A stretch of 64,000 nucleotides of DNA from Buxus sempervirens. Lineage: Eukaryota; Streptophyta; Magnoliopsida; Buxales; Buxaceae. Location: NCBI GenBank assembly GCA_947561395.2, contig OX387194.1, positions 22,058,048 through 22,122,047 on the forward strand. Direction: 5' to 3'. Each line of letters starts with the position of its first letter. The first letter of the stretch is position 1. The position numbers and the translations under genes were made by a program. This document shows positions 14,481 to 63,045 of the stretch, piece after piece. The notes under the pieces were generated by a model, which was given only the letters and a program-made list of their open reading frames with translations, was not told where the DNA came from and searched no databases.

Positions 14481-15062
14481 CAAGGCCATGCAATTTCAAC
14501 AACCAACAATAACATCACATTACTAAGCTTAGACTCTGGATCCAGGACAAGCTAGACCAAAACAGTAAACATCGTATAATCTCGATTTCAATATCAAAAC
14601 AAAACCATTCATTCCACATCATGTAAGAACTCATCACAATTCATCACCTGTCCCTCTGGACCAAGCAGTACCTCAAGTACATTCAGTATTTTCTCATTTC
14701 CATAACACAAGTCATATGAAAGTAAAACTCAATCCATTCATACCAAAGAAAACCTTTCAATACGTATAAAGTTTCCAACAAGTGAAACCAGAAATACAAG
14801 AACTTCTCAATCAAAACAATGTATAGAACAAGGAAAAGTAACTGGTAACTCTTACTAGTTTGGTGTCCGGCACAATACTCATAAGTAACCTAAACTCAAC
14901 TTAAAACTCATAAGATGTTCACAAATTTTTCCTCTATTAATTTCATAGGCAAAATGGTTTCCCAGGTTCCTAACCAAGTGAATAGTGAAGTGGTTTAACC
15001 CCTAAGTAATGCAAATACCCTTGGTCAAATCAGAAATTCCATTTCGGTAAGCAAAATAGGTC

Positions 15063-15330
15063 TACCGCTCACCTATTGAGGTGGGCGCGAGGTGAGCGCC
15101 GGTCGGCGGTGAAGAAAAAGGGCAAAATCGACCTGCCGCTCACCCGACGCTAGGTGAGCGCGAGATGAGCGCGAGATGGGCGTGAGGTGGGCGCGAGATT
15201 CGCGCGAGATGGGCGCCTCGTTTTCTACTTCGCGCGAGATGAGCGCGAGGTGGGCGCGGGATCGGCGGTAGGTCGTTATTAACGGGGCGCCTACCTCCGA
15301 GGTGAACGCCGGTGAGCGCGAGGTGAGCGG
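15063..15330. repeat. GC-rich palindromic island in LTR A3
   Basis: Repeated GAGCGCGAG, GGGCGCGAG and GGTCGGCGG words in tandem and inverted arrangement. In LTR sense it lies about 300-570 nt downstream of the donor-like site at 15635. Confidence 0.75.
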
Positions 15331-15895
15331 ATACCCCCTGTGGTTTTCATTTCTCTGTTATTTTGAGATCTACATGACTGGCCGGTTTGTGAAGGTCTGT
15401 AACTACTCCAATACACTCCTAATACTCCCAGAAGACTTCCCAACCATATTTGGAATTAATCTAAACACTTTCATTTTCAATTATAAAACTCAATCCGAAG
15501 ACTCTGTTCATGTAACTTCCCGAAAACCAGAAACCAGAAAAACTCATACTATCAGTTGATATGTAAATCATGCATCAGAATAATCTCGAGAGAAACAGAA
15601 AACACAAATCCCAGTTGTAAATCAGTGCTACTCACCGTATGCGCTTAATCCCAGAACAACAGCTTCTTCCCCATTCGGCCGATCGCGATTTCCGGGTGCG
15701 CGCGAAGATGAAATGGTAGCCGAACAACTCCTCTGCTCGCGAGAGAGATAACCCGCAGAAATCCGACTCCAATAAACTCCTAGCAACTCTTGCGGTTCTC
15801 ATCTCTTCCCAGCGAAACCCTAATCGCCACAGTAGCCGCCCTAATTTCAGAGTAACAACATTCCCCCAAAACCCCGAAAATTTATATCAGTTACC

Positions 15896-26896: not shown

Positions 26897-26933
26897 CTAA
26901 AAAATGGGAAAACTAGAGTGAGAATAAATCTCA
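26897..26933 (-). other. Hairpin plus 3' splice-acceptor-like module in LTR B
   Basis: Minus sense: TGAGATTTATTCTCA (26933-26919), 5-bp stem and 5-nt loop, 3' arm continuing as CTCACTC. TTCCCATTTTTTAG ends at 26897, 22 nt after the stem, followed by GTACTCTTGGCGAGGACGG. Confidence 0.6.
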
Positions 26934-29199
26934 ACAAGTAGCAATGTGCATGGGGTAAAACAGTCCATAAATTTTTTTATACAAACTAAGTCATGAGGTG
27001 AAACGATAAAACAAAATCATGATAATATATCCAAAGCAATTATCAAACCAAACATGTGTGACATGACAAGACTCATGAGCTGAAGCCACTTAATAAGCTA
27101 TTCCTGTCCCCATTTTCGCCACCTCACGACTTACATGATAATGGAGCCAGCAACTGCGGATTATCCATTCCTCCGTCAACCATCAATGAGGATCACCCCC
27201 GAGATACACGGATAGGCTAGCGCGTACAATCCAAGTCAACAACAAATAAGTAACCAGGGGAATACCAATCCGATCATAGATATATGGATCGCCGACAAAC
27301 ACGGCTAATACCAATTCCTGTGCAAGTCACAAGTAAACTACAAGCACAGCCAAAATATAGCTCTCAGGTGCAAGTCACAAGTAACCTAAAACATGACCAA
27401 TATAAAGCTCGTGTAAGCTGATGTCCCATTGAAGCACACTGTGGTAACCCAAATAAACCACTGTCGAACAACTCGGCTAAGAAACCAATAACCAATATAA
27501 ACCATTGCCGATCAACAAACTCGTCTAAGACCAGGTCGAGGTAACACGATGGTCTGGATTGCTGCCCTCATCGAAAACACGACGGAATGTATACTGGGGA
27601 ATAACTAACAAGAATAACTTACCAGACAATTTCATTTCACTTCCTAGCTAAGTTATGAATCCATACTAAGCACTACCCGCTAGACACAACTCACAATCAA
27701 CAACATTTAATAACTTGATAATGCGTAAAATCAATAACAAACCCCCATATGAGGAGACACCAAACGTGTCGAATAATGTGTCCACAATCATCACCAAAAT
27801 CCCGGTTGCAAATCAACAAATATTTAAAATAACCAAAATTAGGTCTTAAACAGAGTTCCAGGTCTCTAAAACAAGATAGGTATGAAAACATGTACAATTT
27901 CTTAATGAAAGGTTCAGAATGTGTTTTTTCAATGTGGGCATCCTTAAATCATCCTTCTTTAATCAATAAACAAGTTAGAATTTCACTCCTATAAGTTTTA
28001 CTCAACTTCTACACCTTAGTCACACTTATTTTTGTAATTCATTCAATAGTGTTTCCATTTACCTCATTAATACCCTAGACTCCAAAACTTATGAACAATG
28101 TTATTGATTCCTCCCAAAGGTTAATCTAGGTCTAATATGATATGTTAGACAATGTTTCATTCCTAAATTCCAATTAAAATTAAGCTAAGTTCACACATTC
28201 CACCTAACTAGACTACTTTGGTTCTAGATTGCATTCATTGTTCCAAATAATTATTCTTTTACCCAATTTTTATTTTGCACTTCCTGCATCTCAAATTATC
28301 CTAATTACAGGTGTTACTACTTTAAAATTCCCAGAAAATTATTAAAAATGAATTTGGGCGCAAATATCTAAAAGCTGGAAATTCTGTCAGATGCAGCACA
28401 AACGGGCGCTCGAACGGTCTATCGGGCGTGCTCCTACTGGTAAGACTATTCTTTGACCACTCGCAATGTCGCTCGAGCGGTGCTTCAGGCGACGGGTTTC
28501 TAGCGCTCAGCCAAATACACTGTTTTCTGGGTTTTGCTGATTTTCCGAACTTTATAAAATCTCCATGGTTTTAGGATTGTTCCTAACTCTTATTTTCATT
28601 CCAAATTGTTTCTGAAACTACTCTAACCTAATCTCAATAACTAAAATTTTGTCTAAGTTTTACCCCATTAATTCAATCTCCTATAATCAAAACTTTCCTA
28701 GTTTCTTAAAGAAAGTTTATAATACAAAATTAGGTTTTATAAATCACCAAACTTTTCAAACGAATTCTAACTCAAATTTAACCACGATCAAACATCCAAA
28801 ACACAAGAAAATCATGCAAGTTCTCCAGTTTCAAAGGGGTTTGCTACTTGGCTCTTTGTATGCAACCAGATCTGCCACAAATCCCTAACTGTGTACCCAT
28901 TTTTTGAGCTCGATCGCACCACTTTAGGCTTCTCCAAATCCAATCTCCACCGTTCAGATTGAAATCCCTCATGTGTAGATCAAAACCTCAAAATTTCATG
29001 TTAAACCAACGATTGGATTTCTCTAGAGCTCAGTTCGAACCTTGCTGGTCGGCCATCTGCAGTCTCCTCTTTCTTCAATAAACCCTCTTTTCTTATCTCT
29101 CTTCTTTCCTCTATTTTCTCCAAACCTAGGCACGAATTTCCCTTCTCTTTTCCCCTCATTTTGGTCTATTTTCAAAACCCTAAACTCTCTTAAAGTTAC

Positions 29200-30813: not shown

Positions 30814-31777
30814 TGTAACGCCCCGGATCCGAACCTCGTATCCGAACCCGGAGTGTTAAAGTAACAGTGGCCCAAAAGGATGCTGAATCAGACAATAATT
30901 AAAATTGAACTTTATTCATAATCAAAGAGCAGAAGAAAAATATGAAATCTAAATAAAAGCGTGGATTACATAAATCAAAGTATCCAATCATAACTACCGA
31001 TCAACAGCAATCATCAATTAAAACTGTCTGGTATGGGTTTAACTACAGTGCCCTAAAATAACCAATGATCAACTACTATAAATCTCCTACTCAAATTAAC
31101 ATCAAAATAATAAATATCGCTAATCCTACATAGTAAAGTAATCTTCTTCTTTGTAATCAGAATAGTCCCCTCGCGAATCAGGTTCCGCAATGTCCTCACC
31201 AAGATAATCTGAAAACAAATCCGATAAAATAATGTGAGATAATAAAATCTCAGCAAGTAGCCATGTAGAAAAGAAACATTTATATAGTTCTAAATATGCA
31301 AACGAATAATTAGATTAATCTAGCAATTCAAAGCTCAAAAACAAGCATTCACGATAAGTCTTGCAGGTCTCATGAAATAGAGAATAAGGAAATGACAAGC
31401 TATGCCAATATGCTACCTAACCGATTTATAGGTGGACCAACCGCTACCGATCAGGTTATTCAACACCCAACGGAAGAACTCAACCGTTATCGGAGTGAGT
31501 TAGCATGTACGGCTCAACCAATCCAGGAGTGGGTAACGTAACAACCAACCAACCCAAGAGCGGTACCATCCTCGAGATGATGGAATGCCTATGACCCAGA
31601 ATCCAAACTCTAATAACATTTCACATACTAGCTACTCTATGGATCTATGTAAGAGCTAAGCCCACTCAACAGTGGCAAACCAAAAACAATCAATTTAGAT
31701 GCCGGAAATAACATTATTAATCCACAAGACAACTCCAAGATACATGAAGGAAACCCAAGTCTCAAACTCAAGCTACA
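30814..31777 (-). mobile_element. 5' LTR of Gypsy X, 3' portion only
   Basis: The LTR end GGGGCGTTACA (minus) at 30814 directly precedes the primer-binding site and gag of X. About 960 bp remain before LTR C2 begins at 31778, so U3 and the promoter are missing or displaced. It contains the same hairpin-acceptor module as the A, B and D LTRs (31209-31251). The ends and general design match family A, but most of the sequence differs. Confidence 0.75.
31209..31251 (-). other. Hairpin plus 3' splice-acceptor-like module in LTR X
   Basis: Minus sense: TGAGAT-TTTATT-ATCTCA (31251-31234), 3' arm continuing as CTCACATT, then GGATTTGTTTTCAG ending at 31209, 25 nt after the stem, and ATTATCTTGGTGAGGACATT. 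Confidence 0.6.
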
Positions 31778-35088: not shown

Positions 35089-35715
35089 CTAAGCATAAAA
35101 TGGTTTTTTGTAAAATGGTTTTGTATCCTTAATAAAGACACCAGACCCATAAGTAGACTTAATCATATCAACAAAGAGTGGAAATTGCAACATTGCAAAC
35201 AAGGTGACTGGGACGCCAACCAGAAGACAGATGGGAATTGTAATCCACACAACTTCATGGCGAAGCATAATGAAGAGGGCAGCACCAAAGGACATCATCA
35301 TAGTCAACATAGAGAGAAAGAGGAAGACAAGTCCAATGATTAATTTCTCCGGCAAGGACCGCAGGAAATCTTCTTGTGCATACCTCGAAGTTAAGATGTA
35401 TAAGAACATCAATGCAGAAGTAATGGAAGAGAAAAGAGAGAAAGCATCTGCTATGGCAAACAACATGAAGGATCTTGAATGTAAGAAATTTGGGACGCCT
35501 TTGTCATCATTTCCACCTGGTACTTGAAATGCAGCAGAAAACATGACAGTTGCAATAAGGGTGGCTACCACTGTAGATGATGTGGCAGTGTCCTTCATCC
35601 ATTTTTCTCCTTCTTCAACTAAATCCTTGTGTTGCTTTCTAAATAGAACATGAGGAATTTGTCCACCGGCGTTCTTTAGATTCCTGTGTGAAGGTGGTGT
35701 GATATATTCAACTTC
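35089..35715 (-). CDS. Ankyrin/PGG gene, last exon (PGG domain)
   Basis: The acceptor TTTTTATCATTTTAG ends at 35716, and the exon opens with GAAGTTGAA (Glu-Val-Glu), continuing the Trp-Phe-Lys end of exon 3. About 39 residues including EEGEKWMKDTATSS lead into the PGG domain: a first hydrophobic span (TVVATLIATVMFSAAF), the signature VPGGND, then spans around FMLFAIADAFSLFSSITSAL, LIIGLVFLFLSMLTMMMSF and VWITIPICLLVGVPVTLFAM. The stop TAG is at 35091-35089. Domain length is normal for the family. The antisense ORF at 35204-35527 is a shadow. Confidence 0.93.
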   Translation of the reverse strand, partial: EVEYITPPSHRNLKNAGGQIPHVLFRKQHKDLVEEGEKWMKDTATSSTVVATLIATVMFSAAFQVPGGNDDKGVPNFLHSRSFMLFAIADAFSLFSSITSALMFLYILTSRYAQEDFLRSLPEKLIIGLVFLFLSMLTMMMSFGAALFIMLRHEVVWITIPICLLVGVPVTLFAMLQFPLFVDMIKSTYGSGVFIKDTKPFYKKPFYA

Positions 35716-38700
35716 CTAAAATGATAAAAACACATCAAACACAAACAAGGGTCAGCTGATAGACTAACGAAACCAGTAGCTTATTTTGAGGGTGCATTTG
35801 GGGCCAGTTTTCGTGAATTATATTGCCATCCAAAGTTCAAGCAAAAGCTTATAAAATTGAATTTCCATTTTCACAGGTTATGAAAAATAAAATGGAAGAA
35901 GTAAGGTAAATACTAGTTATAGTGCAGTTATGAAGAAAAGGATTTGAAAAATATAGGCTAAATTATTTTACCTGAAATGAGATAATCATAGAAATGAATC
36001 TGTGGGAAAGTGTCAAGGTCCCATATGAGAAATTTACAAAAAATGAAGAAAGAAGATGATGCAAAAAGCATTCCGTCCAGAAATTGGTAGTCCCACACGG
36101 TATTCTACCAATGTTGAGTGGAAATAGTTTTTAAATTGATACTTCTGAGTGCTTCTAAGCATGAAGTGCACAAAGGGTTAAGTGGTGTGACTCAATAAAT
36201 TCCTGCAAGTGTTGGAGAGTTGGTGGAACAGGCAGAGGCATTTCCACACAACTTTGTCAGTCAGGATAATTTAAATGATATCATAATGACAAGATAAAAT
36301 TGCCCTTGAACCACTGATTTTAGTTGCCTTCGGCTATTTTACCTAAAAGAATTGAGCTCTGTTCCTCCTTGCTTATTGGCTGAAACTGGACTTTTCATTA
36401 AATTTCTTAACAAATCCAATTAAACAGTAAATTTTTCTATAACCTCAAAATAGATACTTTTGGAGACCCATAAAGCTGCTTTACTCACCTAGTCCCTGTT
36501 AGGCATATAATTGAATAGAAACTGAGGTTCCACTTTATTAGCCTGTTATTTTCTTCCAATATATTGAGAAAAGCGTGCTTAGAAAACTAGTGTTTTCATT
36601 TTGATGGCATGCCACACCTAGCCTCTGTTAGGTATATAACAGAATCGGAACTGACATTCCACTTTATTAGCTTATTATTTTCTTCCGATATATTGAGAAA
36701 AAGGTGTGCTTAGGAAACCAGTGTGCTGTCAAAATTTTGGCATTTACAACCCATCTGGAAAAAAAAAAGAAAAAGAAAATGTGTCGTTCTTTCTTTTTCT
36801 TTTTTTGGTTTTGGTTTTCTAGAGGAGGAGGGAGGAGAAAGAGGGGTGGCGGGGGGCTTGCTTGATCCAAAGTCAAGCGAGTTTTTGCAAGGGCGCCGCC
36901 GAAACACAACAAATTTCGCCACTTTTCGGCAGCACACTTGTTTTTTTTTTTTTTTCCCTCTTGTATTCTTTTTCTTGGGAATTTTTTAGCCTTTGAAGAG
37001 ATTTCTCCCCATGTAATGACCTGAGTCTACGTGGTACGATATTGTTCGCTTTGGGCCCTATAGTTTGCATGGTTTTGTTCCCAGGTATAAGTATAACACG
37101 AGGAAGACTTCCCAGTGGTCACCCGTCATAGCACTACTCTTCACCTGAGCACACTTCACTTCAGAGTTCCAAAGAGTTATCTTGTGGGTCCTATCTGTGG
37201 GTGGTACGGATGTGTGGTTGACCCAACCCGCTTTAAGATGCCCAATATGAGTGTGCAGGGTAGTTCAAGATAGAGATGAAGTGTAAATAAGAATCCTAAA
37301 ACTATTGGATTCTATCTCTTGCTCTCTCTATAAATAGCACCCTAGGGCTCCCTATTTGTGTAATTGTCGTCATTCGTGAGAGTACAACTAGAAGGAGCCA
37401 AAGCCAAGAGGAGCAGTGTTCCAGCTTGGATAGAAAGATCCACTCTACGGAGAGCAGTAGTTCTATCTAGAAGACCTAGGGATCCCGTCCAGCCTAGGGA
37501 AGGATTTACGTTGCGGAAAGCAAAGAGGATCCTAGTTATCAGGTTCTCTAAAAATGTGGGTGTAGTCTGATTCGAGATCCGTTGATTCCGTTGCGAATTT
37601 CGGGTTTGGATATGTTACAGGTATGTATCTAAAATCCTACACAAAGGGATTTAGCTCCCGTGTCAGCCCTAAAAAGTCTCATACTAAGGAGTTCCAATGC
37701 TTTACTCAAATAGCACAGTCACCTTTTCACACTCAGGCGATGCGGGATTACAACCATATGCACATCCCCGCCTAGTAGCTCGCCTAGGTCTCTCACCACG
37801 CCCACATCACAGCCGTCCACTCAGACAACCAAGATGTCACACCCCACCTCTCTCAAAAAGCACACTTGTTTTGATTTTTTCCCAAGTTGCCCAAGACTCA
37901 CTATGATTCTTCAGATCAATGGTATGAAAACACTAAAGAACCCTTTTAGAGAGCATGTGGAGTTTGATCATGTCCATATCCATGCCCTTTGAAGGTAAAA
38001 CGTATAATTTTTTCATTTTGAAGGCTTTAATCTTATTAAAAATAGTTCATTTTCATCCATATGATATAGCAACACTCGATCTATCGATAGGTGTCAACAT
38101 TTTGATAAAAAATTATTTTAACCGAAAAATCATTAAAAATTTTTCGAAAAATATAGAACCATAAAAAAGATGGGTTTTTGTTGTTTTTTTTTTTGGTTAC
38201 ATATTATTAAATTTTAAAAGTAGTATTTTTAATTATAATTTAAATAATATAAACTATATAATAATAAAAAAAATTAAAAACAGAAATTAATTAAAAATTG
38301 TAAAGATTTTGAAAAACTACAAAAATTAATTTTAAAATTAGATGAATATATTAATTAAATTAATTTCTTTTTTATATACAAATAATATAAATGGCATTAA
38401 ATTACATGGAATGAAGCAAAATATTTGCAGGTATAAAATTTGTAAATTACTCATTCTATTATTTGCTTAGTAATATTTACAAAAATATAATACTAAAACA
38501 GAAAATAAAAATAAAAAAGGAAAAGAAAATTTTTTGAATCATTGGAAAGATATATGAATGATAACTATTCAACTACTTATGTATATAAATTATTTTTCCA
38601 TTCTATAAATTTACAATGATATTCAAAATGATTAAGTGAAATTTTTAAATATATGATAAAAAGTAAATGAGTGATATTTTTGTTACTAAGGTACCGTTTG

Positions 38701-41700
38701 GTAATGCTTTCAGAAGTGCTTTTTTGCTTTTGAAAGCAAAAAATTGCTTTTGAAAGAAAAAGTGCTGTTTGATTATGCACACGTAAAGCAATTTATAAGA
38801 AGCAAAAAAGCAATTTCATTGCTTTTCAAAAGAAGCATAAAAATGTTGCTTCACACTTTAACCATAAATTTGCTTTCTTGCTTCTAAAACCCATGACACA
38901 AAACTAGACCGGAAAAAAATTGACCCATCATGTCCAATCCAACCCGAATAAAACGGGTTTGGGTTGACCCGTGTAATAGTTGGATGGGCTTCGGGTTGGG
39001 GATTTAGTAACCCATTCGTATTCGGGTCAACTCAAATCTAGCCTGATAATGATCCATTAAACCCGATAATAACCTGTTTAACCTGATAATGACCCACTTA
39101 ACCTGATAATGATCCGTTCAACCCGATAATAACCCATTTAACACGATAATGGCCTGTTTAACACGATAATGGCCCATCTAACCAGATAATGACTCGTTTA
39201 ACCCGATAATAACCCGCTTAACCCAATAATGGTCTGTTTAACCCAATAACGACCCGTTTAATTCGACAATGGCCCATTTAACTTGATAAACCCGTTTAAC
39301 CTAATAATGACCTGTTAAACCCTATATTGTATCACTAATTTACTTTATTTTCTATTGGTGTATTTTTTATAATTAAAAAATAAAAAATTTTAATTGGGTT
39401 GGTGGGTTGAAGTCGATTATTGGCAAGTTGGGTTTGGTTTTGGATTTTCCAACCCACTAATAAATAGATTCAACTTGAACCGACCCGATTATTGCTCAAC
39501 GCATTACAATATACGTCGAGTATATTTTTAAGTAGAATGCATCAATTGTTTACGGTAGTTTTATATGATAGTATAAAAGCAATTTATATGCTATTGTAAT
39601 TACCAAACATGCTTTTTTGCTTTTTAACAGTAAAGGAAAAGTTTACCAAACAGTTTTGCTTCAACAAAAGATCTTCTGAAAAGCAGAAAAGCGTTACCAA
39701 ACGGAGCCTAAGCTGTGTGTTTCTTTTTTGTACGCTGTGAAAGTCTCTATCAGCCTGTTATGATTGTGTGTAAATCGTTTTCAAGTTTTGAGCAACAATG
39801 TAGCAATATGTTAATTGGCAATGGAAGTCGAGGTGAGCGGCATGGTCAGAGGTAAGATATAAGCTGGAGCCATAGGACCAAATATTAAGGGAATAGCAAT
39901 AGGACCGTCTGTAACTATTGCAAGCAAGTTATTAGTGGAGTGTCATGATTAAAAAAACACTTGGCACATGAATACAATAATGTTGTAAATTGTCCATGAG
40001 TGCCTCCAAAGGTGAAGAGGCAAAAGAGAGAACACTTGCTAGATGGAGTTGCGGGTAGGCAGCAGAGGAGGATAAATTGGAGATATCAAACATACGCTAG
40101 TGTACCCTGATTATGGTGTTAGCTATGGCAAAGAAGGGCTCATACTTAGCCTCCATTCAAACATCTCTACCGTTTAAGTTTAAGAGGAGGAAGGCTGAGA
40201 GATATGGCTTTCAAAGGGGTTTTGTACATTCAGAGTATCATGGTATGGGGCTAAGGGTGATCCACCTGGGTTGGGGTTTTACACAGCAAAAATATGCCGA
40301 ATTATCCTATAAAGTGCTCTTTGTATCTATCATCATATTCCAAGTAAAAGATATTGAAAGACACCTAGAGCAAGGAATCAGTCAGAGATGGGAAGTTTAC
40401 ATCCAAATTCTTTCTATTCAATCATACTCCAGCAAATGCAACAAATACTTTTAAGAATATGGTTGATGCAGATTCAAGAATCGGGTGCTAGAGTGATACC
40501 CCTTACACCACATGAGATTATGGGGGTATACTTGGATTGGGAGAAGAGGAAGATGAGGGATTTCATTTCCTCATTAGGACTAACTAGGAACAGTTGGGTT
40601 TGGCTATTGTGTGTGATGGTTGGATTGCATAATAGGACAAGTCCTACTAGACTATCCATCATCAACTTCACGATGTATAGTAGAGACAAAGCTGTATTTT
40701 TTAAATTAGTGGACGCATCATATAAGATTAAGGATGCGAGATGCAAGATGCATTGCTAGTCTACTTGAAGGTGTAATAGATGAGGTCAATAGAGACCATA
40801 TGATTCATATTGTCATAAATAATGATAGTGCATTTAAGAAGGCTAGTTAGAGGTTATAAGAGAAGTAAGCCCTTTGTTAGATCCCATGTACAATCGATTT
40901 TATTGGCTTAATGTTGGAGTCGATTACATAGAGGAGCAACGTAGGTAGCATGCTACAAGATGCACTGGCATTCAAGCATTTGTTTATAATCATAATTATT
41001 AACTTGTGAAGATGAAAGAGATGTGGTGTAAACACAGTTTAACTAAGGATTACTAGATTCGACACACACAATATTGCTTTGGAGAGTATTTTGAAGCACT
41101 GGTAGGGATTTGGGTCACTTTTCTTGAGTCAAACTGGACAAGGTGCCGTCAGAACCACATAGATATTGAGAAGAGAGTCAAAGATATCATTATTCCTAGC
41201 TCATTTTGAGATAAAGTTAGAGATTTAGTAGTCATGTTGAATCTACCATATATTGAGGGTTTTGGATACAGATGATTATCCCATAGTAGGATCTATATAT
41301 GAGTGCATAAAAGTGATGAAATCCCACATCAAGGCCGCAGCACCTAAATCATATAAATCAGTTCAAAAGATAGTTAGCAATCAATGGTTTCGGACACTAG
41401 ATACCTCCAACATTTAGCTGGTATGAATTTGTTATCATATTTTATTATTGCATTAGATATTTTTGTTCTAGTTGTTCTAATAAAATTTTTTTTCTTAATC
41501 ATCAATACCGCATACTACTTGAACCAAAAGTAACATTATAAGGACGCACTTGAGTCTCACATAGAGTTGTGCATTATAGCGCATGAGGTACATATAAAGT
41601 TGGATCCTAATTCTAATGCACATGCATGCTTTGGAAATAAGGTAAGCCACATATTTTTGTACAATGATATCACAATTTAGTATCATTTTTCAACACCAAC

Positions 41701-44700
41701 CATTTTTCAAACATTGTCATCTATCATTTACTAGTTGATATTTTTTAGAGATGCACTTGGCTCATTCAGATCTACCACAGCTATCTCATAAAAGGCAACG
41801 CTGATATAGTGTAACTTTATGTGCGCATACTTTAGTATATGCTGTTTTTTTAAATATTAATATTTCGTTTATAGCTCCAAGTAAATGGTGGATGATGTAT
41901 AGGGCTGACATCTCTACATTGAGGAAACTAACTGCTAAGTTTTTCACTCAAACAGCATATTCTTCTGCATGTGAGCGGAAATGAAGCACATTGCTCTCAT
42001 ACACATAAGCAAAGGAACATATCGGTGTACGAGAGGTTATAGAAGCTGGTGTTCTATAATTATAATATGAAGATAAGGAAAAAAAAACAAAAGGAGATTA
42101 AACGTCGCAGTACCATTGTGGAGGATGCTCCAGACGTGCTATTCAGTAATGATGTTGATGACAAGGACCCTTTCACAGATTGAGTTACGTGTGTTTAGAT
42201 AGACCAGCCAGATGGTAGATCGAGCTCAATTACTGTTAGTGCTGCAACAACGATGTGCATAAACGTTAATACTTCGATAAAGGAGGAAAGAAAGACATGA
42301 GCTCAGACTCACTTGATCGAGCAAAGAGAGCTGTTCCTTCCCTAGTTTCACTAGTAGTAGTTTCCAACCCCAACCCAGCCTCAACACATGGAAGGCAACG
42401 TGATCCAATCCATCAGAGGAGGAAGAGGGAGATGAGACAGAGGAAAAAATCAGAGGATAATGATGATGATGATGATGGTGGTGGTAGTGGAGATGACAAC
42501 AATCAAGGTAGTGCAGATACAAGTGTCCGGGGTTGAATCCTTTCACTGGAGAGGCTGTGTTCGAGCATATCACACAAGATTGGGACCCTAGCACCAAAGA
42601 TTTCGGTGGTGGTGATAGCAGTAGAACACCGACTTTTCAAAGGAGGGGCAAAGAAAAGCATAAGCAACATATTGATGTACATAACAAGTCTTCTATAGCT
42701 TAGAGTATTGGATCTATGGATGTTGGATCTATACTTATGAATATAGGGATAGTCCAATTATAGTTTTTGAAGGCACTATCTACAACAAGGCCAGGGACTT
42801 TTGGGACACATCTTATGATTTATAGTTCATACGGTTCACGCTACTATCCTCAACAGCCTGGACTAGCAAATTAGTCTGATAATAATTACGGTTCATACAA
42901 ATATCATAGATTGCAGTTGCATACATCTAATACTTATGGGTTCTTCCCAATGAATCTTTATCCGTATGGTTTCTATGTTGCATCAAGTGGAGTGGTACAC
43001 CTTGCATATGGCTTTATTTGTTATCTTTACCACCATTAGCTGGAGCGAAAGCCTGATATTTTGGTAGTTAATGTTCATCATCTCGAGTATCCTCTAGTTG
43101 GCATCATGGCACATATTACCCAAGAGGAATACAAGGATCATGTTCGCTTATACAAGGAATATCAATGTAGGATGTGATGGAATCGCTTCTACCACTTCAT
43201 TGGTGAAAGAGTAAGGTTTGGGCCACCTAGAGACTCTAGTCTGTTTTGACAGCACCACGAACCACCATTGTGTATCATTCTTTTTTTTTTCACCGGTTAA
43301 TCAGTTACTATTGTTTGTTATTAACCATTTCGTTTTCTTAGTCAGTTGAATGTTATTTGATTAATGTTTCATATTCCACCATTATATGACTTATGATTGA
43401 TTATCAATCATCATGTGATTATTAATTTTTTTTAACATATTATTATGAATTTTGAGTATATAATGAATATGATGCATGATTGATGATTTTTTTTTCCAAA
43501 CATTATAGGTTTTCAATCGAAAGAGAAAAAATTTGTTTTTGGAGAAATTTTGACAGCACACCAGTGTGTGCTGTCAAAATTTACTTGATCTGGATGATTT
43601 GATCTTTTCCCCCTAAATAGGTGAGATGTTGGTGGCATGCCCCAGAAATTTCATTTTGTGCCCTTTACAAAATATCCATCAGCACCAAAACATAAAACCT
43701 TGTCATTGGGAACTCCAATATTTACATCAAATTCTTGGGTTGTGTGCCATCATAGAATTGAGTCCATGTCAAATTTCACTATTGTGACTAACAAAGAGGA
43801 AGACTCAATGTAGCTGTTTGACTGTTGGGCTCTAAGTGTCCAAGTGCCGTGATCTCCTTCCAAAAGTTAAAACTCTTGTCATGATTTGCCAAGCAAATCT
43901 AGAGCATTGAATTTGTAGCTAATGCATTTAGATTTGTGCGGAACTATCCTCCAATGCTACCCATGGTTAAAGTCACTTAAGTTTGATTAACAACAGCTTT
44001 GGGTTTACATTTGTACTTTCCAAATCGAAACAACAGAGTGCTGAAGGGAATAAAGTAGATGACTTGAAAAGATGATGCCTATGTTATAACTACACTAAAG
44101 CAGGATCTTTTGTGGACTATATATGGCCAGCATCAAAGATGCAGAGAATGTTTCTTATACATGGCAAGCAGGATTTGTCATGACTTTGCAGGAAAGGTTA
44201 ATATATATATTAGGACACCTAGAAGTTACAAGAAAATGTGGCATTAAAGAATATCCACGTTGATTTCCACAAGCTTGAAAAAGGCTACCATTTTATTTCC
44301 TTGTGGTTTATTATTTCATACCAGAAATATTGCTGTAGCTCTCATTTTTTGCTAAAAGTTCTAATGTCCTCCTTGAATCATTCAACTTTGTCCTATACTA
44401 ATGCAATATCCAAATTCCTTGCACTTGATTCTCTCACGTCACTCTTCCAACTTTCAAATGTACTCCTGCTATCCAAATGGAGCTTATATCGATTCCTACA
44501 AACAAGCGAAGCACAATAATCTAACAAGAGATAAGTTGGTTAAAAAGTCTTTTTCCAAGAAATCATTCAAAATCCAGGGGGGCATATAAGTCTGGAGAAA
44601 GAAACAAGCTTTTTGAAGCCAACTTCAATGAGAAAATCCAAGAATTAGTTGAAAAAATGGGCAGTTTTGTCATTCAATCAGAATTATGAATATTCGATCA

Positions 44701-47700
44701 GATTGTTATGAAATATTGGTGACAAAATTAATAATCCTTAGTTATGGTCACCTTCATAAATGTAAAAATTGTATTGCAGTCTTAATTTTATTAACTATAC
44801 AAGGAATGTATGTTCTGTCATAGCTACACACACACACACACACAGATGTATATAAAGATATATATCTAGGTAATCAGTTTCTTTGTTTAGAACTTAGTAC
44901 TATACAGTAGACTTCCCAGGAAAACAGGTAGTAAAACTAAAGAGAAAGAGTCAAGCTATCTGTGAATGAAACTATGAAAAAATTAATTACCTTAAACCAC
45001 TGTAGCTCACGTTGTAGCTGCAGAGCAGCACCAGATACCCTACGCAGTCGCTCCGGAGGGGCCAAAAGTGCAGCTAAATGCAATATGTGATTTCCTTTAT
45101 CATCTGTTTGGCATGCCATGTTTGCCTTTTCAGCACCCAGCTTATAGATGAGATTGAAAATCTTCTCTTGTCGATGCTTAACTGCAACATGAAAGATGTT
45201 CTGATCATGTTGATCAATTATCCGAATAAGATTGGGGCAAGAATTGGCAATCTCAATAATAAACTCCACAGTTCCACATTGAGCGGCCTTGAAGATTGCA
45301 GAACGCACATGAAATTCCTCATGCTCTGAGTAATCAAAAGTTATAACTTGATTACATAACAGTCTCAGAAGTTGATGGGCTTGATGATGCATCAGTTTTT
45401 CCCTATATATTTGGTCCACCCTGACGATTGCTGTCATTGTGCCAGTGACCATTAGGTGAATATCATGTCAACATCCAGTCAATCAAGTAAAAAAAATCCA
45501 CCCATAAAGCAAAATTAGTGGAATTGCACACCCAGTAGATTTGAAGCAAACCAAGATAATAATACATGCAGTTTTCCCGGACCTGCGAGATGGAACCAAG
45601 TCTACAACATTAATAAATGGTTTGAAATGGTTTTTTTTTATTGTTTTCTTCTTTCGGTTAATATATGAGAGAAAACCTTACCTCGATAGCCCACTTGATC
45701 CCCAGAGTTACAAGGGGAATTATCTTCGTCCTCTTCATCCACTTTCACGCAAGATGGGGCAGTGCAACATATTGTCTCAGACTTTACAGTCACACCTTCA
45801 AGACAACATGGGTTTATTTCATAATTCTTCTACTTTATCAAATACAAAATGATGAATAAATAAAGAATAAGTCATAAGAATCTCCTTTGAGCTTCATGCC
45901 AACACACATACGCACAAAACAGTTACAGATATCACTCATCACTTAATTTCTAAAATAACATTGACTTCCCGTCAGATTCTATAGTCTGTACCTACCTGTT
46001 CGTCAAGAAATAACAATACAGATCTTAATCAGAACTATTGACTTCTCATAATTGTGAGTGTTTCACCATGATCCTTAAAAAATAAAAAATAAAAACTTCT
46101 AAATATCCAATTTTATAAAGGGAATTAGCATAAAACATAATTCAACATGTACAGGTGCATCCTTAGAAATCTAAAGTTTTAATATTAAGCATATTCACTC
46201 AAGAGACTTAATTTCACTTAATAGAAGTTATAGGTTACATCCAAGGAATCAGCAGTGAGGTTAGTGTTATTATTTTATAAAAGCAAATAGAGATATCTAT
46301 AACTTTATCAGACCTCAAGCATAGTTCGTATAATTTAATCTAATTAAAAAAAAATTTGTGAAGCATGGATTTCGCATGTAACAGATAATTTGTGAATATC
46401 AAAGGTTCTACCCTGAGGTACATAACCTGAAACAAATATGTTGTTCCCACATGATCCATTTGATCAAATTAGAACACTCTAGCACAAAAACCTTAACAAA
46501 TATTGTGTCCCTAAGTGTCAGAAAAGTGTTCAACTTATAATAAAGAAAAGGCTAAAACCATGGTTTTTCATTTCGACGACATTTCACGAAACGTTGCGAA
46601 ATGTCACCATTTTCAGAGGTGTTGACTCGAAATGTTGTGAGAGAGGGAGGAATATTGACCATTCCTGGAAGTTGGTAAAATGTTGTTGACATGAAGTAAA
46701 AGTTGACTCATGAGGGCGACTGCTCGAGATGTTGCAATTTCAGCACTTCCTATTTTTGTGGCTGTGACCTTGGTAGAAACATGTACTACCTAATTTTGTA
46801 TGCATTTTAAGCTTTACCATGTATGCCTATTCCATTGTTTCTTCATTACAATTCCTTTAAAAATGCAAATGATTCATTTATATACCTTTTTTTACCAAAT
46901 TCATAGGTTTTAGGGGTATTTTATCTAATTTAAACTTAAATATAGCATAATTCTAGAGTACTATATAATTTTACTGCTTTTTCTTATTTTTTTTCTTCAA
47001 TTATATCTCCTCTGGAGAATTTTCCTGCAAGTCGGAGAAGAGCCACCAACATGTCAGTGGAATTTCACCAGTAGCAGCTGGGAAAATTTCAATCAACATG
47101 AAATGTAAAACCTTCGCTAAAAGCTTAAAACAATGGTACCATAACAATATACATAAAATCAGTGTAAAAGATAAATACATTTTCTGTAATGGGATACATC
47201 CTCATTGTGTATGGGAGTACGCCATGTTTGTAAACAGCCACTGGAATGGCAATTTGGATATGTAATTTGCAATAAGAGTGGTGATTTGGTTTTAAATTTT
47301 TGCTAGGTATAATAGTCTTTATGTACCGTAGTAAAATTACAAAGAAAAAATATTCTATTTTACTATCTACTTGGCTGCTTTAATCATCATCTACTACACT
47401 TTGCTATGAGTTGAAATAATTTGGAAGCTGTTGTGGAAATCTATTTAGTCATTAATTAACTGGAATGATGGACGAAGGGTTTGCAATTTTGCGACATTTT
47501 GGTAAAATGTCGTGAAATTTTGCTATTTTCCAAGGTGGCAACACAAAACCACCTTGGAAAAGGAAATGTCGAAGATTCTATAATGTCAGCGAAATTTCAC
47601 GAAATGTCAATAATACACAAGTTTGAGCTTATTTTGATTTTTTTTAAGGTCTGGCAATTTTCCCTCATTTCTGCGACATTTCGCCGGCAACACCTGGGGA

Positions 47701-48957
47701 AATGTCATTCGAAACGACCTTGTAAACCTTGGATGGACGCTTGTGCACAATAGCATCCAATCAGTAATGGAAGAGTTTGAAAACAGGATCCAATACAAAA
47801 AAAGTTAAACTCAATGAAGAAAGGTTATCATCAGGTGGGATGTTTGATGTGTACCCTACACCATTCAGCATAGGACATAAATCACATATATGCACTATAA
47901 CACGCAAAAGCAACACGTCCTATTCTCAATGATGCCTGGGTACCTAATAAATATCCAATCAGTAAATAAATTTAGTTTTCTTTCAAATCATCCTAATAGT
48001 ATTGTAGGTCCATAATGCCATGCACATGTAACAACACTTTCACTAAACACATGTAAGAAACAAAGTTGGGTTTGCCTATGTTGGCAATATGGACCAAACA
48101 AAATTAGTAGCATACCAAAATAACATAAAGAAAGGAGCATAGATAGTTTGTCCACTTTCTTTGTATGTATAAACTAACTGAAGGATGGATGCACCAACAT
48201 TGGTATACACATCTTGCCACGAATCCCATTTGACTTCCACTTAGAAATGCAGAAGGTCTTTCAGCAAGTTGACCTAGGGCAGTTTCCTCTGGGAGGCTTG
48301 GGGTGATTGCTAACTTTCCATGCCATTGCACTAGACGTGAAGACACATCTGCAAAAAGTACCATCAATTGCTCTGTAATAGATAAATGCATTAATCTGAC
48401 ACAGAGCATTAACCTGACACAGAAACACACACACACACATAGTATACTTGTCCCTCACCATACATATCGATAGAAATTAAGGTTGCAACAAGCATAGACC
48501 CATTGAAATAGTTCCTCAGTTGTAGATCTTCTTTTGGGGTCACTTCATAAAGATAACGCACCATGTCCTTCTTGTCAAACTGAGCAGCAGTAACAAGAGG
48601 TACCCACCCACCAACATTTTTAATCCTAACTAAATCCCTGTTCTTTTCCACTAGTACCTTTGCAATCTCTGTGGTTCCTCCCACAGCAGCAAGAGAAAGA
48701 GCTGTTACCCCATAATCGTTCTTAATTTCCAAATCTTTTGGATCCATCTTGTTTACCAGTTCTTTAACAGTCTGCAAATGTCCCTGTCGAATAGCAAAAA
48801 TAAGAGGGGTGTCCCCTGCTTGTGTGATTCGTGCAGTCACAGTATTAGGATGCTGGTCAAGGAATGCTTTGGCACTCTTCCAATCACCTTTTGCTATAGC
48901 TCTCTGAAGTGGTAGATACTCCTTATAATCTTTGTTTGCTATCACTGCACCAGCCAT
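35089..48957 (-). CDS. Ankyrin-repeat, PGG-domain membrane protein gene (at least four exons)
   Basis: The only credible host gene. Proposed exons on the minus strand: 48957-48459, 48372-48179 (end uncertain), about 45430-44991 and 35715-35089, giving about 585 residues. Exon 1 holds ankyrin repeats; exon 3 continues them; exon 4 has the PGG domain with about four membrane spans. Relatives include plant ACD6/ITN1-like proteins, plasma-membrane or ER proteins linked to defence and salt responses; a specific role here is unknown. The exon 3-4 junction is in phase, with consensus donor and acceptor, across a 9.3-kb intron filled by a hAT element. No stop or frameshift was seen in the assigned exons. 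The exon 2-3 junction does not phase as drawn, so an extra small exon or another donor is likely. Confidence 0.85.
36485..36723. repeat. Tandem duplication of about 125 bp in the large intron
   Basis: Two similar copies, from about 36485 and 36610, share CCACTTTATTAGC, TTATTTTCTTCC, ATATTGAGAAAA and GTGTGCTTAG-like segments. The second copy runs directly into the hAT left end. Confidence 0.7.
37013..37619 (+). mobile_element. LTR-like or TRIM-like repeat with an antisense 5S-like block
   Basis: TG...CA-bounded block: TGTAATGACCTGAG at 37013 and GGATATGTTACA at 37619. A TATAAATAG box sits on the plus strand at about 37329. The minus strand of 37096-37185 resembles 5S rRNA, as in Cassandra-type TRIMs, except that here the 5S-like block is antisense to the TATA box. 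No second LTR or target duplication was found, so the class is uncertain. Confidence 0.5.
37096..37185 (-). ncRNA. 5S rRNA-derived sequence (pseudo-5S)
   Basis: Minus sense includes GAACTCTGAAGTGAAGTGTG, a GTGCTCAGG stretch (A-box-like), AGAGTAGTGCTATGA (intermediate-element-like) and GACGGGTGACCACTGGGAAG (C-box-like), ending CTCGTGTT. The order and spacing match the second half of plant 5S rRNA and its internal promoter, with several substitutions. The first third of 5S rRNA is not recognisable. It is a transposon-borne derivative rather than a 5S gene. Confidence 0.75.
38690..39708. mobile_element. Tourist/PIF-Harbinger-like nonautonomous element, 1,019 bp
   Basis: Ends GGTACCGTTTGGTAATGC and (inverted) GGCTCCGTTTGGTAACGC, 15/18 identical, flanked by TAA on both sides (38687-38689 and 39709-39711), the target duplication of Tourist-like elements. 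Subterminal sequence is rich in short GCTTTT/AAAAGC words in both orientations. No transposase. A minisatellite occupies the middle. Confidence 0.8.
39030..39325. repeat. Minisatellite of about 22 bp inside the Tourist-like element
   Basis: About thirteen degenerate copies of a unit like ACCCGATAATGACCCGTTTA. Copies differ mainly at CCCG/CCTG and GACC/AACC/GGCC positions. Confidence 0.85.
39880..42190 (+). pseudogene. hAT transposase remnants (BED, DUF659, dimerisation)
   Basis: About 39880-40030 reads VCNYCKQVISG followed by LKKHLAHEYNN, a BED zinc finger. About 40450-40850 has the pattern of the DUF659 core: LTPHEIMGVYLDWEK, a TRNSWVWLLC segment, RLSIINFTMYSRDKAVFFKL and VDAS, later IHIVINNDSAFKKA. 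About 41870-42090 matches the C-terminal dimerisation region (PSKWWMMYRADISTLRKL, FFTQTAYSSACERK). Many stops and frameshifts interrupt these parts. A related autonomous transposase would cut and paste the element in the nucleus; this one cannot. Confidence 0.8.
43546..43583. repeat. Perfect 17-bp hairpin at the hAT right junction
   Basis: AAATTTTGACAGCACAC, then CAGT, then GTGTGCTGTCAAAATTT: the hAT right terminus, the duplicated target and a third copy of the terminal-repeat sequence outside the element. Confidence 0.9.
43584..44990. other. Remaining intron sequence of the ankyrin/PGG gene
   Basis: No supported coding sequence; the ORF at 44238-44519 has no recognisable domain. It contains a (CA)9-like microsatellite near 44826-44843. 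Confidence 0.5.
44991..45430 (-). CDS. Ankyrin/PGG gene, exon 3 (distal ankyrin region)
   Basis: Encodes QIYREKLMHHQAHQLLRLLC, then AAQCGTVEFIIEIANSCPNL, FHVAVKHRQEKIFNLIYKLG, DDKGNHILHLAALLAPPERL and ending GAALQLQRELQWFK. This is the usual degenerate ankyrin block and linker before the PGG domain in this family. The donor AAG|GTAATT lies at 44991/44990 in phase 0, joining the last exon. The start is uncertain: AG acceptors at 45431 and 45421 give different phases; 45430 is used here. The exon is 440 bp from that start. Confidence 0.85.
45431..48178. other. Intron 2 of the ankyrin/PGG gene
   Basis: About 2.7 kb, AT-rich. It includes a possible nonautonomous DNA element (46556-47733). A short exon may be hidden here, because exons 2 and 3 as drawn do not share phase. 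ORFs at 45541-45852 and 47481-47753 show no domain. Confidence 0.5.
46556..47733. mobile_element. Possible MITE-like element with TTTCG/GAAATGTC words
   Basis: Both ends contain repeated and inverted GACATTTC/GAAATGTC words: near 46570-46605 and near 47500-47710. Outer ends AACCATGGTTTTT and (inverted) CCAAGGTTTACAAGG are related imperfectly. No clean target duplication was found, so boundaries and class are tentative. Confidence 0.4.
48179..48372 (-). CDS. Ankyrin/PGG gene, exon 2 (3' end uncertain)
   Basis: The acceptor TTTATCTATTACAG ends at 48373. The exon completes the codon split after exon 1 (G+AG, Glu) and reads EQLMVLFADVSSRLVQWHGK, then EETALGQLAERPSAFLSGSQ and MGFVARCVYQC. The PSAFLSGSQ-GF stretch is characteristic of this family right after the first ankyrin block. 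The proposed donor TCA|GTTAGT at 48179 leaves phase 0, which does not fit exon 3, so the real donor may be upstream. Confidence 0.75.
48459..48957 (-). CDS. Ankyrin/PGG gene, exon 1 (start and ankyrin repeats)
   Basis: Starts at ATG 48957-48955: MAGAVIANKDYKEYLPLQRA, then AIAKGDWKSAKAFLDQHP. Ankyrin repeats are visible in GDTPLIFAIRQGHLQTVKEL, DYGVTALSLAAVGGTTEIAK and GGWVPLVTAAQFDKKDMVRY. The LPLQ-AI-KGDW start is typical of the family, supporting this ATG. The donor TATG|GTGAGG is at 48459/48458. A (CA)n microsatellite lies in the intron about 20 bases beyond the donor, at 48425-48440. Confidence 0.9.
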
Positions 48958-49549
48958 TATAATATCTGTTATATATGTATATATTCTATAAATTTATCTT
49001 CTAAATGCTTGAGAAGTGAAGAACATTACTAAGAAGCCAAAGCCAGATGCTAGAATTCGAGGCAAGAAGTTGGGTTTGTATGCACTTGTGTGCACATGTA
49101 GACATATGTGGAGAAAGGGTGAGGGCATCAACTTCGGAAGACAAAACTCTTACTCCTCTCTTGATTGCGGAGGACATTAAATTTCATGTGTAATTTTCAT
49201 TAATAAATCAACTTTTGAGTGAATACATAAAGATTTCAGACATTAAATGCCACGTGTATTGCTGGTTAATAAATAAACTGTTCTGTATGTAAACCGGAAT
49301 TCTGAAAGAACCAAAAAAAAACAAAAGAGAGAGAGAGAAAAAACATTATTTTGTAATTTCATGCACAAAACAAGAATACTTTCCTAAATATTTTCACATA
49401 CATATTTCAACTCTATATATGTTAGATCTTTCCTCAAAAACTATAACTTACAGCAAAAGGTACTAATCTCACGAAATTAACTAGATGATAGATATAAAAA
49501 GTTCTTAAAAGTTGAAAGATGTTTTTCTGTCATAGTTGCTGCTCTAGAT
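48958..49549 (-). promoter_or_regulatory. Upstream region of the ankyrin/PGG gene
   Basis: About 590 bp separate the ATG from the Copia-2 target site. It contains an imperfect duplication of ACATTAAAT...CATGTGTA/CACGTGTA units (about 49172-49210 and 49243-49281); the second carries a CCACGTGT G-box-like site near 49251. AT-rich TATATA runs lie 15-30 bp before the ATG. No transcription start can be fixed from the sequence. Confidence 0.35.
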
Positions 49550-60063: not shown

Positions 60064-60259
60064 GCAAGCCATAAAGAAATAGAATCCATATAAGCAGAAC
60101 TCAAAACTTCATTAATTTCATAAAAAATGTTCAGTACAAATAAACCATGGTTACAATAACCATTTCCCAAGAAAACCCCATCTTAGACAGAATTAATTTG
60201 TCCCATTCAAATACTAATCTAATTTCAGCTTTGTTCAATAGGTATCCCAACATTAGATT
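60064..60259 (-). pseudogene. Copia-3 region between protease and integrase
   Basis: Reads LLNKAEIRLVFEWDKLILSK, GYCNHGLFVLNI and SSAYMDSISLW, the linker before the pre-integrase domain in Tork-like Copia elements. It ends at the LTR D target duplication AGATT. Confidence 0.75.
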
Positions 60260-63018
60260 TGTGAAACCCCATCCCAATATCCCTAGCACATCCTAATCAG
60301 TGAGTTTGATGTGTAGGTGAAGCTGGAGAAGCCAAAGCCTAAAGCCAGTCAAAGTGGCTAAGCCCCAGCTCGTCAATAGGCCAAGGAGATGAGTAATCCT
60401 TAGATCCTTGAATAAGATTTTTTTTTTAATTATTGTGAGATGAACAAGTTTAAAGAGTTAAGTGTTGGTTGGTATTGTGCAATGTAGGAGGAGAGAGTGG
60501 CAAAATTGTAAAAATTGATGTCTTGTGGAGAAGATTTATTTAAGTGAAGAAAAACAAAGGGGAAAAATGCCATTCACGACCAACCCCTTTCCCTAACCCT
60601 TTCCTCTCTTCTCTTGCTCTCCCATTCTCCCATTTCTTCTTCATCTTCACCCCATTTCGTCCCCATTCATTTCTAAACTCATTGGAGGAAGTTGCTTGCA
60701 AGAAAAGAAAGAAGAACACCAAAGAAAGCCATTTTCGTTTGGGGGTTTGCTTGGTGAGATTGTGGGAAAATCACCAAGGAGCACATCAAGAGCTGTTCGT
60801 GGCTTGCATTGGAGGCTAAACAACATGCTTAAGAGATTGCAAGAGGTAAGCAATACCACCCCAACCCTTTTTTCACGATTTCGGCCATTTTCGTATGTTT
60901 AGATGAATGTTAGGGTTGAGATGTGAAAACAAGTTATAGGCCAAATGGGAGGGATTTCTTTGAGGGTTTGTTGGTAGTAGATAACTATACATGCTAGGAG
61001 TAAATTAGAGACCAAAAACATTAGGAATGAATGAGATTTGAGAAAATCAAAATCCCCAAAAGTTCGGATTTCGCGAACTGTCAAAAACCCAGTCACCCGC
61101 GATGCCGCTCGAGCGAGGTATCGGGCACCTCTTTTTGAACTAGTTTTAAGGCATGGCCGCTCAAGCGACTATTCTAGCGACTTGTCTGAACAAAAGAACC
61201 TGAGAGCAAATTATGGCCGCTCGAAGCAGGCTCAAGCGACCTATCGAGCGCCCTTACCAGATTTTCACAATTTTGAGTTTTTAGCCCAGATTGAACTACC
61301 CTTTGTTTTTATTCAAATCCAATCTATGTATAAATGAGAGTTAGGTGTCTAGGAGGTGTTCCAACTGGAAGTATCTCAAAATTCCAAATAACAAGGATTT
61401 TGGGTACGTTTTGCCAAAGAAGGTCTTAGAAAGAGTTTGTCCCAGATTACTATAGAAATAGGATAACTTGATTCCACCACTTCAAACACTTTCCAAATAA
61501 CCCTTAGAAGTAGAAATTAAGAACCAAAACCAAGTTGTTCAAGTATCAAAAGAGTTGGGGCATAGGTTGCCCAAATGAATCATGAAAGGTAGAGAATTTA
61601 TGAAAACCAAACCTTTACCATTGACCATCAATGTGAGTACACCACCCATGACCTGATGGGCTTCGGCCTGGTATTTTACACATAGTATGAAGGGCATTGG
61701 CCCGTATTACATTTGCACTACATCAAGGGCTTTGGCCCGTTATTTGTAATACGCGATGAAAAGGGCAGTGGCCCAGGGATATTGACACTATGAATAAGAG
61801 GACAGTGGCCCCGATGACATTGAGATATATTGAACAGAAGGCTTGGCCCAAGATTGACTCGGGTAAGGCCATGGGCTACCCTTGAGCATTTTCCATGCAA
61901 GTGTGCATGAGGTATTGATATGAGAAATTGACCAGTAAGTCTTGGTGGGTTGTGAGCGGTTCATCTCAATTGGGGTAGTGGACCATTGTTCCTCCCAACT
62001 TAGAGATAAAGAACTAGCATCCTCCACGCAAGCTTGGATATTTGAGATGTTACATTTTTGTTCTTCACTGTTATACTTTGTGAATTTGATAAATAAACAC
62101 ATCGGCATAATGAACCCTTAAGGTATGGATCCATAGACTTAAATAGGGTTGTTTGTATATATATGCCATAGCCAATTGTTATTGTTACTGTTACTGCTCT
62201 ATTGTGATATCATCCCGGCACCAACAACATCGGTGGCCGATGCCCATTTGTTACGGGGAATCGGCAATGGATGCCTGTACGTCAAGGGGAATTAGCATAT
62301 AGATGCCTACGTCAAGGGGAATCGACGTAGATGCCTAGCCACCACGAGGAATCGGTGAAGCTAGATGGGGCCATGTGTAGTATATATAAACATACTAGAT
62401 AACAAGTGATAATATTGAATACATGATTGATATTAAATGGATTATCTGTACACTGAGGCACATACATGCACTATTGTATGACACCAAGATGCCGTGGATT
62501 TTGTAGTATTAGAACTACTCGCATGCCATGGTTTTATCGATAGATATTTGCATCAACTGTATTTTCACCGATTCATGCATGTGTTGCTTACTGAGACATT
62601 TGTCTCACAGTTGCTTCTTATCTCATTTTTCAGATCCATCGACGTCCACTGTGAAGGACTGGGCTGGGGATAGAGGCAAGGAAAAGGCCATCGGGTACAG
62701 AGAGGAAGACTATTATATGCCTTAGGATTTTTATTCTGTCATACCTGTATAGTTTTGGATTGTAAAACCTATACATTGAGAGGAGTGATTAGTTACCCAA
62801 TATTTTGTAACCAACTTTCATGTTTTATTTAATTCCAAATATATATATATATATATATGAACAAACTTTTGATATGCACATGTATAAACTGTTTGCACTT
62901 GCACTTGTATAGAAAAAGTTTTTAATTCTTTCGTGTTTTATCAAATATCATGACCCACCTGCCACGGTCCGGGACGGGTTGTGCCTTGGAGGGGCAAACC
63001 TGGTTTCGGGTCATGACA
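60260..63018 (+). mobile_element. Solo LTR D (Gypsy-type), 2,759 bp, in Copia-3
   Basis: TGTGAAACCCCATCCC...TCGGGTCATGACA, flanked by perfect AGATT duplications (60255-60259 and 63019-63023). A donor-like CAAGAG|GTAAGC lies at 60846, a CGCTCGAGCG-containing GC island at 61090-61255 and the hairpin-acceptor module at 62592-62633, giving a possible 1,788-nt intron. It also has repeated GGGC(TT)TGGCCC-type words around 61650-61850 and a (TA)n run near 62839-62858. No retrotransposon genes; the ORF at 61038-61337 crosses the GC island and has no domain. Confidence 0.92.
62592..62633 (+). other. Hairpin plus 3' splice-acceptor-like module in LTR D
   Basis: TGAGACATTTGTCTCA (62592-62607), a perfect 6-bp stem with a C-G pair where A2 has T-A; CTCACAG overlaps the 3' arm. 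TTCTTATCTCATTTTTCAG ends at 62633, 26 nt after the stem. Confidence 0.65.
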
Positions 63019-63045
63019 AGATTCCTTCTGATGCCCAGTACATAC
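63019..63045 (-). pseudogene. Copia-3 remnant between LTR D and LTR C4
   Basis: Twenty-seven bases, including one AGATT copy, that continue Copia-3 beyond LTR D. They are too short to assign a domain. Confidence 0.4.

Follow-up and report, generated by a model that had tools for sequence, protein, structure and literature searches.

Predicted intron with complementary ends in long terminal repeats of Buxus sempervirens retrotransposons

Long terminal repeats (LTRs) of retrotransposons in Buxus sempervirens carry a predicted intron whose two ends are complementary to each other. About 10 nt directly 5' of a conserved hairpin (P2) are the reverse complement of the first 10 or so nt of the intron, and the complementarity of the predicted helix (P1) is kept through compensatory changes between families. 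The interpretation that we favour, with a probability of roughly 0.6, is that the ends of this LTR intron are locked by stacked P1 and P2, with most transcripts left unspliced and some spliced. Should this reading hold, an intron with both ends locked together is present in thousands of LTRs of a single plant genome. This would bear on how LTR elements keep genomic RNA unspliced yet splice some of it for translation, on how an LTR intron can survive reverse transcription, and on the masking or pre-alignment of a donor and a branch point by RNA folding alone. Such introns would, in addition, place splice sites near host genes on a wide scale. The natural families with their compensatory changes make the intron fold directly testable.

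All seven LTRs of the window (the whole stretch of 64,000 nucleotides that was analysed) do contain the hairpin, which forms one part of a larger structure. The first-pass annotation had described an inverted repeat in LTRs A1, A2, A3, B, B', X and D. Six of the seven were correctly placed and that of X was off by one base (Table 1 has the corrected position), while the stems of 5-7 bp and the loop sequences agree in all seven. It had also reported CTCAC, CTCAT or CTCG where the 3' arm ends, followed by a T-rich CAG or TAG; this holds in the LTRs other than B', which reads TTTTCAAG. The sense orientation was correct, as seen from the order of LTR, primer-binding site (PBS) and gag-pol in L039 and L042/L043, and the strand that had been read is the LTR sense strand because L039 shows an LTR pair, a PBS and then gag-pol matches. 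The proposal of a structured 3' splice site with a predicted branch site in the stem stands as anatomy, but the hairpin is only half of the structure. The unit is the whole intron, because the block beside the hairpin is complementary to a donor in the same LTR (anti-5'ss). No Rfam family matched within the window at the gathering score.

Table 1. Positions of LTR features in the window (a slash marks the predicted splice site)
Feature	Position	Strand	Basis
LTR D, solo LTR, 2759 bp	60260-63018	+	sequence, script
LTR D, TATA-like TATTTAA, weak candidate, 309 nt before donor	60537-60543	+	script
LTR D, predicted donor GAG/GTAAGCAATAC, intron +1 = 60846	60843-60856	+	complement search, 5'ss matrix
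LTR D, predicted intron, 1788 nt	60846-62633	+	script
LTR D, anti-5'ss TGTGTTGCTTAC, pairs with intron +1 to +11 (P1)	62580-62591	+	pairing counts
LTR D, hairpin P2 TGAGAC-ATTT-GTCTCA, predicted branch A 62607	62592-62607	+	sequence
LTR D, tract ending TTTTTCAG, predicted acceptor AG 62632-62633	62608-62633	+	sequence
LTR B', predicted donor, GC type, GAG/GCAAGTAGTAAC, intron +1 = 5492	5492-5494	-	complement search, 5'ss matrix
LTR B', anti-5'ss GTTGCTACTTGT	3605-3616	-	complement search
LTR B', hairpin	3588-3604	-	sequence
LTR A3, predicted donor ACG/GTGAGTAGCAC, intron +1 = 15635	15635-15637	-	complement search, 5'ss matrix
LTR A3, anti-5'ss TGTGCTGCTCAC	13706-13717	-	complement search
LTR A3, hairpin	13688-13705	-	sequence
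LTR A2, predicted donor AGA/GTGAGTAGCAC, intron +1 = 8376	8376-8378	-	complement search
LTR A2, anti-5'ss TGTGTTACTCGC	6880-6891	-	complement search
LTR A2, hairpin	6862-6879	-	sequence
A1 LTR tail, hairpin (6281-6298) and anti-5'ss (6299-6310)	6281-6310	-	sequence
LTR B, hairpin (26919-26933) and anti-5'ss	26919-26945	-	sequence
LTR X, hairpin (31235-31252) and anti-5'ss	31235-31264	-	sequence

The predicted donors lie upstream of the hairpin in the same LTR. In the LTR of L042, a strong donor, CACTCAG/GTGAGTAGCACTG, is found about 1.5 kb before the hairpin, and GTGCTACTCGC, directly 5' of the hairpin, is its reverse complement. A script that took the best upstream complement of the bases preceding each hairpin found a strong 5' splice site (5'ss; AG/GTRAGT or the GC type AG/GCAAGT) in most copies with enough sequence. 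The donor-like complements are mostly 1.3-1.9 kb upstream, with larger distances for A1 (2078), L047 (2945) and one copy in L044/L045 (3129). In targeted stretches, donors were found at nine of 20 places and none at another nine; the site in two more f4 copies, CAG/GCAAGTTAGCAC, could pair if one base bulged out. Of ten places in new families, six gave a donor, with none found for L077, L079, L085 and L087. LTR D, flanked by an intact 5-bp target site duplication (AGATT at 60255-60259 and 63019-63023), has the donor that ranks first among the 88 5'ss candidates of its stretch. The A2 donor is the fourth-ranked 5'ss in its stretch and is also the best complement found for the A1 anti-5'ss; A1 showed no clear donor that belongs to it. 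For LTRs B and X no donor was found within 3.2 kb upstream of the hairpin. Family f2 keeps a GC-type donor, with 1331 matching donor sites at three or fewer mismatches.

A 5'ss matrix that takes no account of the anti-5'ss points to many of the same sites. Among 44 copies examined, 43 had a top score of at least 5, and in 26 of these 43 the top site pairs with the anti-5'ss at nine or more of 11 positions, although three of these top sites (L077, L089 and one in L042/L043) were probably picked in place of the true donor. The other 17 top sites pair at 5-8 positions. Conversely, 28 of 49 copies reach a complementarity score of at least 16, and in 24 of them the best complement is also the top-ranked 5'ss.

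P1 covaries between families, and this is where the main covariation lies. Pairing was counted in 16 family or subfamily representatives, several of them related; L091 was retained with its two mismatches, and the representative of L089 (D89), the second-ranked 5'ss in its stretch, was picked by homology to D and complementarity. From +1 to +10, 158 of 160 cells are paired, compared with 25-95 when the strands are slid by 1-3 nt. Extending to +12 gives 172 of 192 paired cells, against a mean of 157.5 (sd 3.0) when partners are swapped, a value reached in none of 20,000 swaps, which treat the representatives as unrelated. Pairs of families that differ by a double change number 197 (swaps 60, sd 21; 0/20,000). 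The signal is present outside the match to U1: at +7 to +11, 74 of 80 cells are paired (swaps 65.1, sd 2.2; 0/20,000), and including +12 weakens it (2/20,000). Six representatives have a donor with C at +2, and in five of them the opposite base is G. The exon bases -1 to -3 do not extend P1 (19 of 48 paired). The isolated duplexes have predicted energies of -9.4 to -18.0 kcal/mol, except for L091 at -3.8.

P1 ends where P2 begins, with no gap in the copies examined. The main collecting patterns fix this spacing; TGAGATN{3,7}ATCTCACTCA, in which it is not fixed, gave 21+21 matches (1+4 for the reversed control), with the block in six of eight loci and a gap in none. Unconstrained folding of six whole introns recovered 8, 0, 11, 0, 10 and 0 of 11 native P1 pairs and, respectively, 0, 6, 6, 6, 0 and 5 P2 pairs, so that native P1 formed in three of the six and both helices together only in D. 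P1 and the hairpin can compete, because the exon CAG of one f1 copy extends P1 into the hairpin.

The block is retained in numerous copies across the assembly (676.5 Mb, 247 contigs), where pattern counts for the large families are lower bounds. The pattern CATGN{2,14}CTACTYGYTGAGA, which stops at the 5' arm of the hairpin, has at least 4214+3035 matches (7249, overlapping double matches counted), against 3+0 for the reversed pattern. The hairpin and acceptor together (CTNAYTGAGAN{4,9}TCTCAN{12,30}TTTYAG) are matched at least 1160+1219 times (2379), against 0+0. These controls rule out chance occurrence of the block. A scan of IMG/VR for the block gave three matches, judged from their contexts to be chance. 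An unselected sample of 25 distinct copies from 30 loci was picked solely on sequence up to the 5' arm. The TCTCA 3' arm is kept in 20 of the 25, and a T-rich AG in 22, preceded by C in 21 and by T in one, the degenerate hairpin of L012; two of the remaining three read CAA and one is truncated. In L012 (1510-1610) the anti-5'ss block occurs twice, 69 nt apart, and the first copy has this degenerate hairpin.

Covariation inside the hairpin is mild. Stem length ranges from 5 to 7 bp and loop length from 4 to 7 nt across the 25 distinct forms, in which base pairs were counted by script, as the MAFFT alignment misplaced the loops. Pairs 1-5, which the collecting patterns largely or partly fix, are nearly invariant and without covariation. 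Pair 6 is T-A, C-G or T.G in 22 of 25 forms (18.5 on average under swapping; 22 or more in 52 of 20,000 swaps), and pair 7 gave no covariation signal in the same forms. Among the 100 matches listed for the hairpin and acceptor pattern, pair 6 is C-G in 45, T.T in 28, T-A in 16, C.A in eight and T.G in three. The T-A to C-G change noted in the first-pass annotation is thus genuine, being one of the two main paired states at pair 6; covariation is modest in the hairpin and is found mainly in the donor/anti-5'ss helix. Stable tetraloops (UUCG, GUAA) were considered as the main feature and rejected; the loop is unconserved, because AUUA, ACCC and UUUAU occur beside them. A donor directly after the acceptor (GGTGAGG) was also rejected as unconserved, several copies reading GGAGAG.

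Splice signals are conserved outside both helices. Plant U2-type introns have an AG/GTRAGT or AG/GCAAGT donor, a branch-like YTNAY, a U-rich tract and YAG, and these signals are present here in the expected order and spacing. Of the 16 representatives, 14 have G as the last exon base (-1) and 13 have A before it (-2), both positions being outside P1. The distance from the predicted branch A to the AG is 26 nt in D, 23-29 nt in eight introns of 1542-1975 nt, and 34 nt in family E; B', which reads CAAG, lies outside this measurement. A3, f2 and f3 have TATAAA 251-356 nt upstream of the donor. Among four f1 copies, one has TATATA at 293, another TATAAA at 286, and two have such a signal only beyond 480. 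Downstream of the acceptor, AATAAA lies at a distance of 115 nt in f2, 161 nt in f3 and 251 nt in A3, and none was found after the acceptor (exon 2) in D or the four measured f1 copies. The TATA and AATAAA signals thus vary among families, so that a place of the intron within R is an inference.

The arrangement suggests that the element may control its own splicing through folding. An intron of about 1.3-2 kb would sit in the transcribed part of the LTR. Its first 10-11 bases would pair with the anti-5'ss as P1, and P1 would stack on P2, so that a single helix would hold both the U1 site and the branch site and bring G+1 next to the branch A. Such a fold would mask both splice signals, most transcripts would stay unspliced, and the unspliced genomic RNA would retain the full LTR sequence for reverse transcription. 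Opening or remodelling of the fold would permit splicing and yield a shorter leader for gag-pol translation, so that splicing, masking and the choice between genome and messenger would all follow from one structure. With the intron in R, the switch between genome and messenger could possibly operate at both RNA ends. A more specific form of this proposal is tentative: the gapless junction of P1 and P2 would put the branch A next to G+1 and its 2'-OH beside the scissile phosphate, so that the first splicing step would be pre-aligned, with the sites hidden from U1 and U2 yet poised and each transcript switching between genome and messenger.

The same anatomy might instead promote splicing. P1 and P2 would hold the two ends of a long intron together, with its middle looped out, and make mRNA splicing efficient, and genomic RNA would be kept unspliced in some other way, such as early export or packaging. 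Stems that bridge introns are known elsewhere, and here the fold would put the two intron ends side by side, the branch A adjoining G+1. Looped-out introns with long-range pairing are discussed in the accessible part of PMC8052449. However, a genome-wide search for predicted spliced junctions at three or fewer mismatches gave none for f1, f2 or D, and the same rule finds 592 unspliced donors of f1 and 1331 of f2; the RNA that was reverse transcribed was therefore apparently unspliced. The missing spliced copies fit masking, and they would also fit a complete lack of splicing. Masking is favoured over promotion because P1 covers the U1 site (+1 to +6) and P2 covers the branch site, and we regard promotion as doubtful, though worth keeping in view.

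Somewhat less probable is a U1-based control of polyadenylation, by analogy with foamy viruses, in which splicing would be secondary. The donor lies upstream of an in-LTR AATAAA in f2, f3 and A3, and this layout and its logic match those in PMC3694450. On the other hand, exon 2 of D and of the four measured f1 copies lacks AATAAA, the donor is more than 1.6 kb from the poly(A) signal, and such control would not need the conserved hairpin, branch-like site, U-rich tract and YAG.

A role outside splicing (reverse transcription, packaging, antisense transcription or a DNA-bound protein), with incidental splice-like letters, is improbable. The anti-5'ss read on the opposite strand is itself donor-like in several families, but the conserved AG before the donor, the U-rich tract and the YAG lie outside both helices, and loop lengths of 4-7 speak against a fixed DNA-binding palindrome. 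Least credible of all is that a few old changes, inherited by many families, mimic covariation without selection on pairing: the 16 representatives are related, some share a donor and the +3 change could be one or two events, but double changes occur at +3, +8, +9, +10 and +11 in different families and the match is lost on sliding.

The locked LTR intron that we favour resembles known systems in part. In yeast RP51B, a long-range stem joins the regions of the 5'ss and the branch site, and its strips leave both sites free. Complementary strips near both intron ends are common to the two, whereas the pairing predicted here starts at +1 and abuts the branch hairpin. Foamy viruses have their major splice donor in R, where an RNA structure is reported to block U1, and they likewise place the donor inside the LTR upstream of the poly(A) signal; in the accessible text, however, only the donor is in the LTR and the fold is local (PMC3694450). 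The Buxus elements differ from foamy viruses in that a single LTR is predicted to hold donor, branch site and acceptor, and in that the strip complementary to the donor is 1.3-1.9 kb distant, next to the branch hairpin. Plant LTR elements generally have no introns, with Ogre and EVADE as exceptions (PMC12786077), and spliced ones also include BARE1, Bagy2 and CRR (PMC3735527). These elements are similar in having partly spliced transcripts and genomic RNA that differs from messenger, but their introns lie in the internal region (separating ORFs, inside gag or serving an env RNA), and the accessible parts of both papers describe none that sits in an LTR or has paired ends. The open-access papers searched for introns in LTRs and for structural analogues gave no case of an LTR intron whose ends pair.

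The host elements are LTR retrotransposons, with paired TG..CA LTRs, a PBS after the LTR in L039 and L043 and a polypurine tract before the LTR in L042. The LTR pair of L039 matches at 98.9% over the 1604 bp fetched, and its PBS, TGGTATCAAAGCC, begins four bases past the LTR end. ORFs of L039 and L042 match models for gag, protease, reverse transcriptase, RNase H and the integrase zinc-binding domain; L042 also has weak matches below the cut-offs to rve (29.8 bits, cut-off 32.6) and Chromo (22.3, cut-off 25.1). The sole family for which pol was recovered is presumably a chromodomain-bearing Ty3/gypsy element, Tekay/Del-like from its domain sequences. It shares Ty3/gypsy domains, a chromodomain-like C-terminus (L042) and an iMet-like PBS with Tekay/Del chromoviruses; the LTR intron predicted here is not mentioned in the accessible portion of the paper on them (PMC6317226). 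L117, placed with D on the basis of its LTR end, shows a PBS followed by a segment that shares 39.6% identity with L039 gag over 159 aa, and L115, a copy near L081, has a PBS directly after the LTR. In L116, an E-family copy, the sequence past the PBS reads by eye like a chromodomain end, and the copy looks internally deleted because this end follows the PBS.

Some other features were seen beside these elements. L039 has a second intron-like stretch at 1646-1752, between the PBS and the gag ATG: AG/GTAGTAAG ... CTTAACTAATG ... GTGCTTACAG/GTATACATG. In the window, a donor of the same type, TCATCAAG/GTAAGTAGCACC, is present at 1734 on the minus strand, and its acceptor would fall at or beyond the window start. 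At 6051-8581 and 13457-15839, A1 is an LTR tail of about 460 nt adjoining A2, and A3 matches the A1 tail plus the body of A2, a pattern suggestive of LTR nesting or recombination. The reading frames at 35089-48993 resemble what we take to be plant ankyrin/PGG-domain genes.
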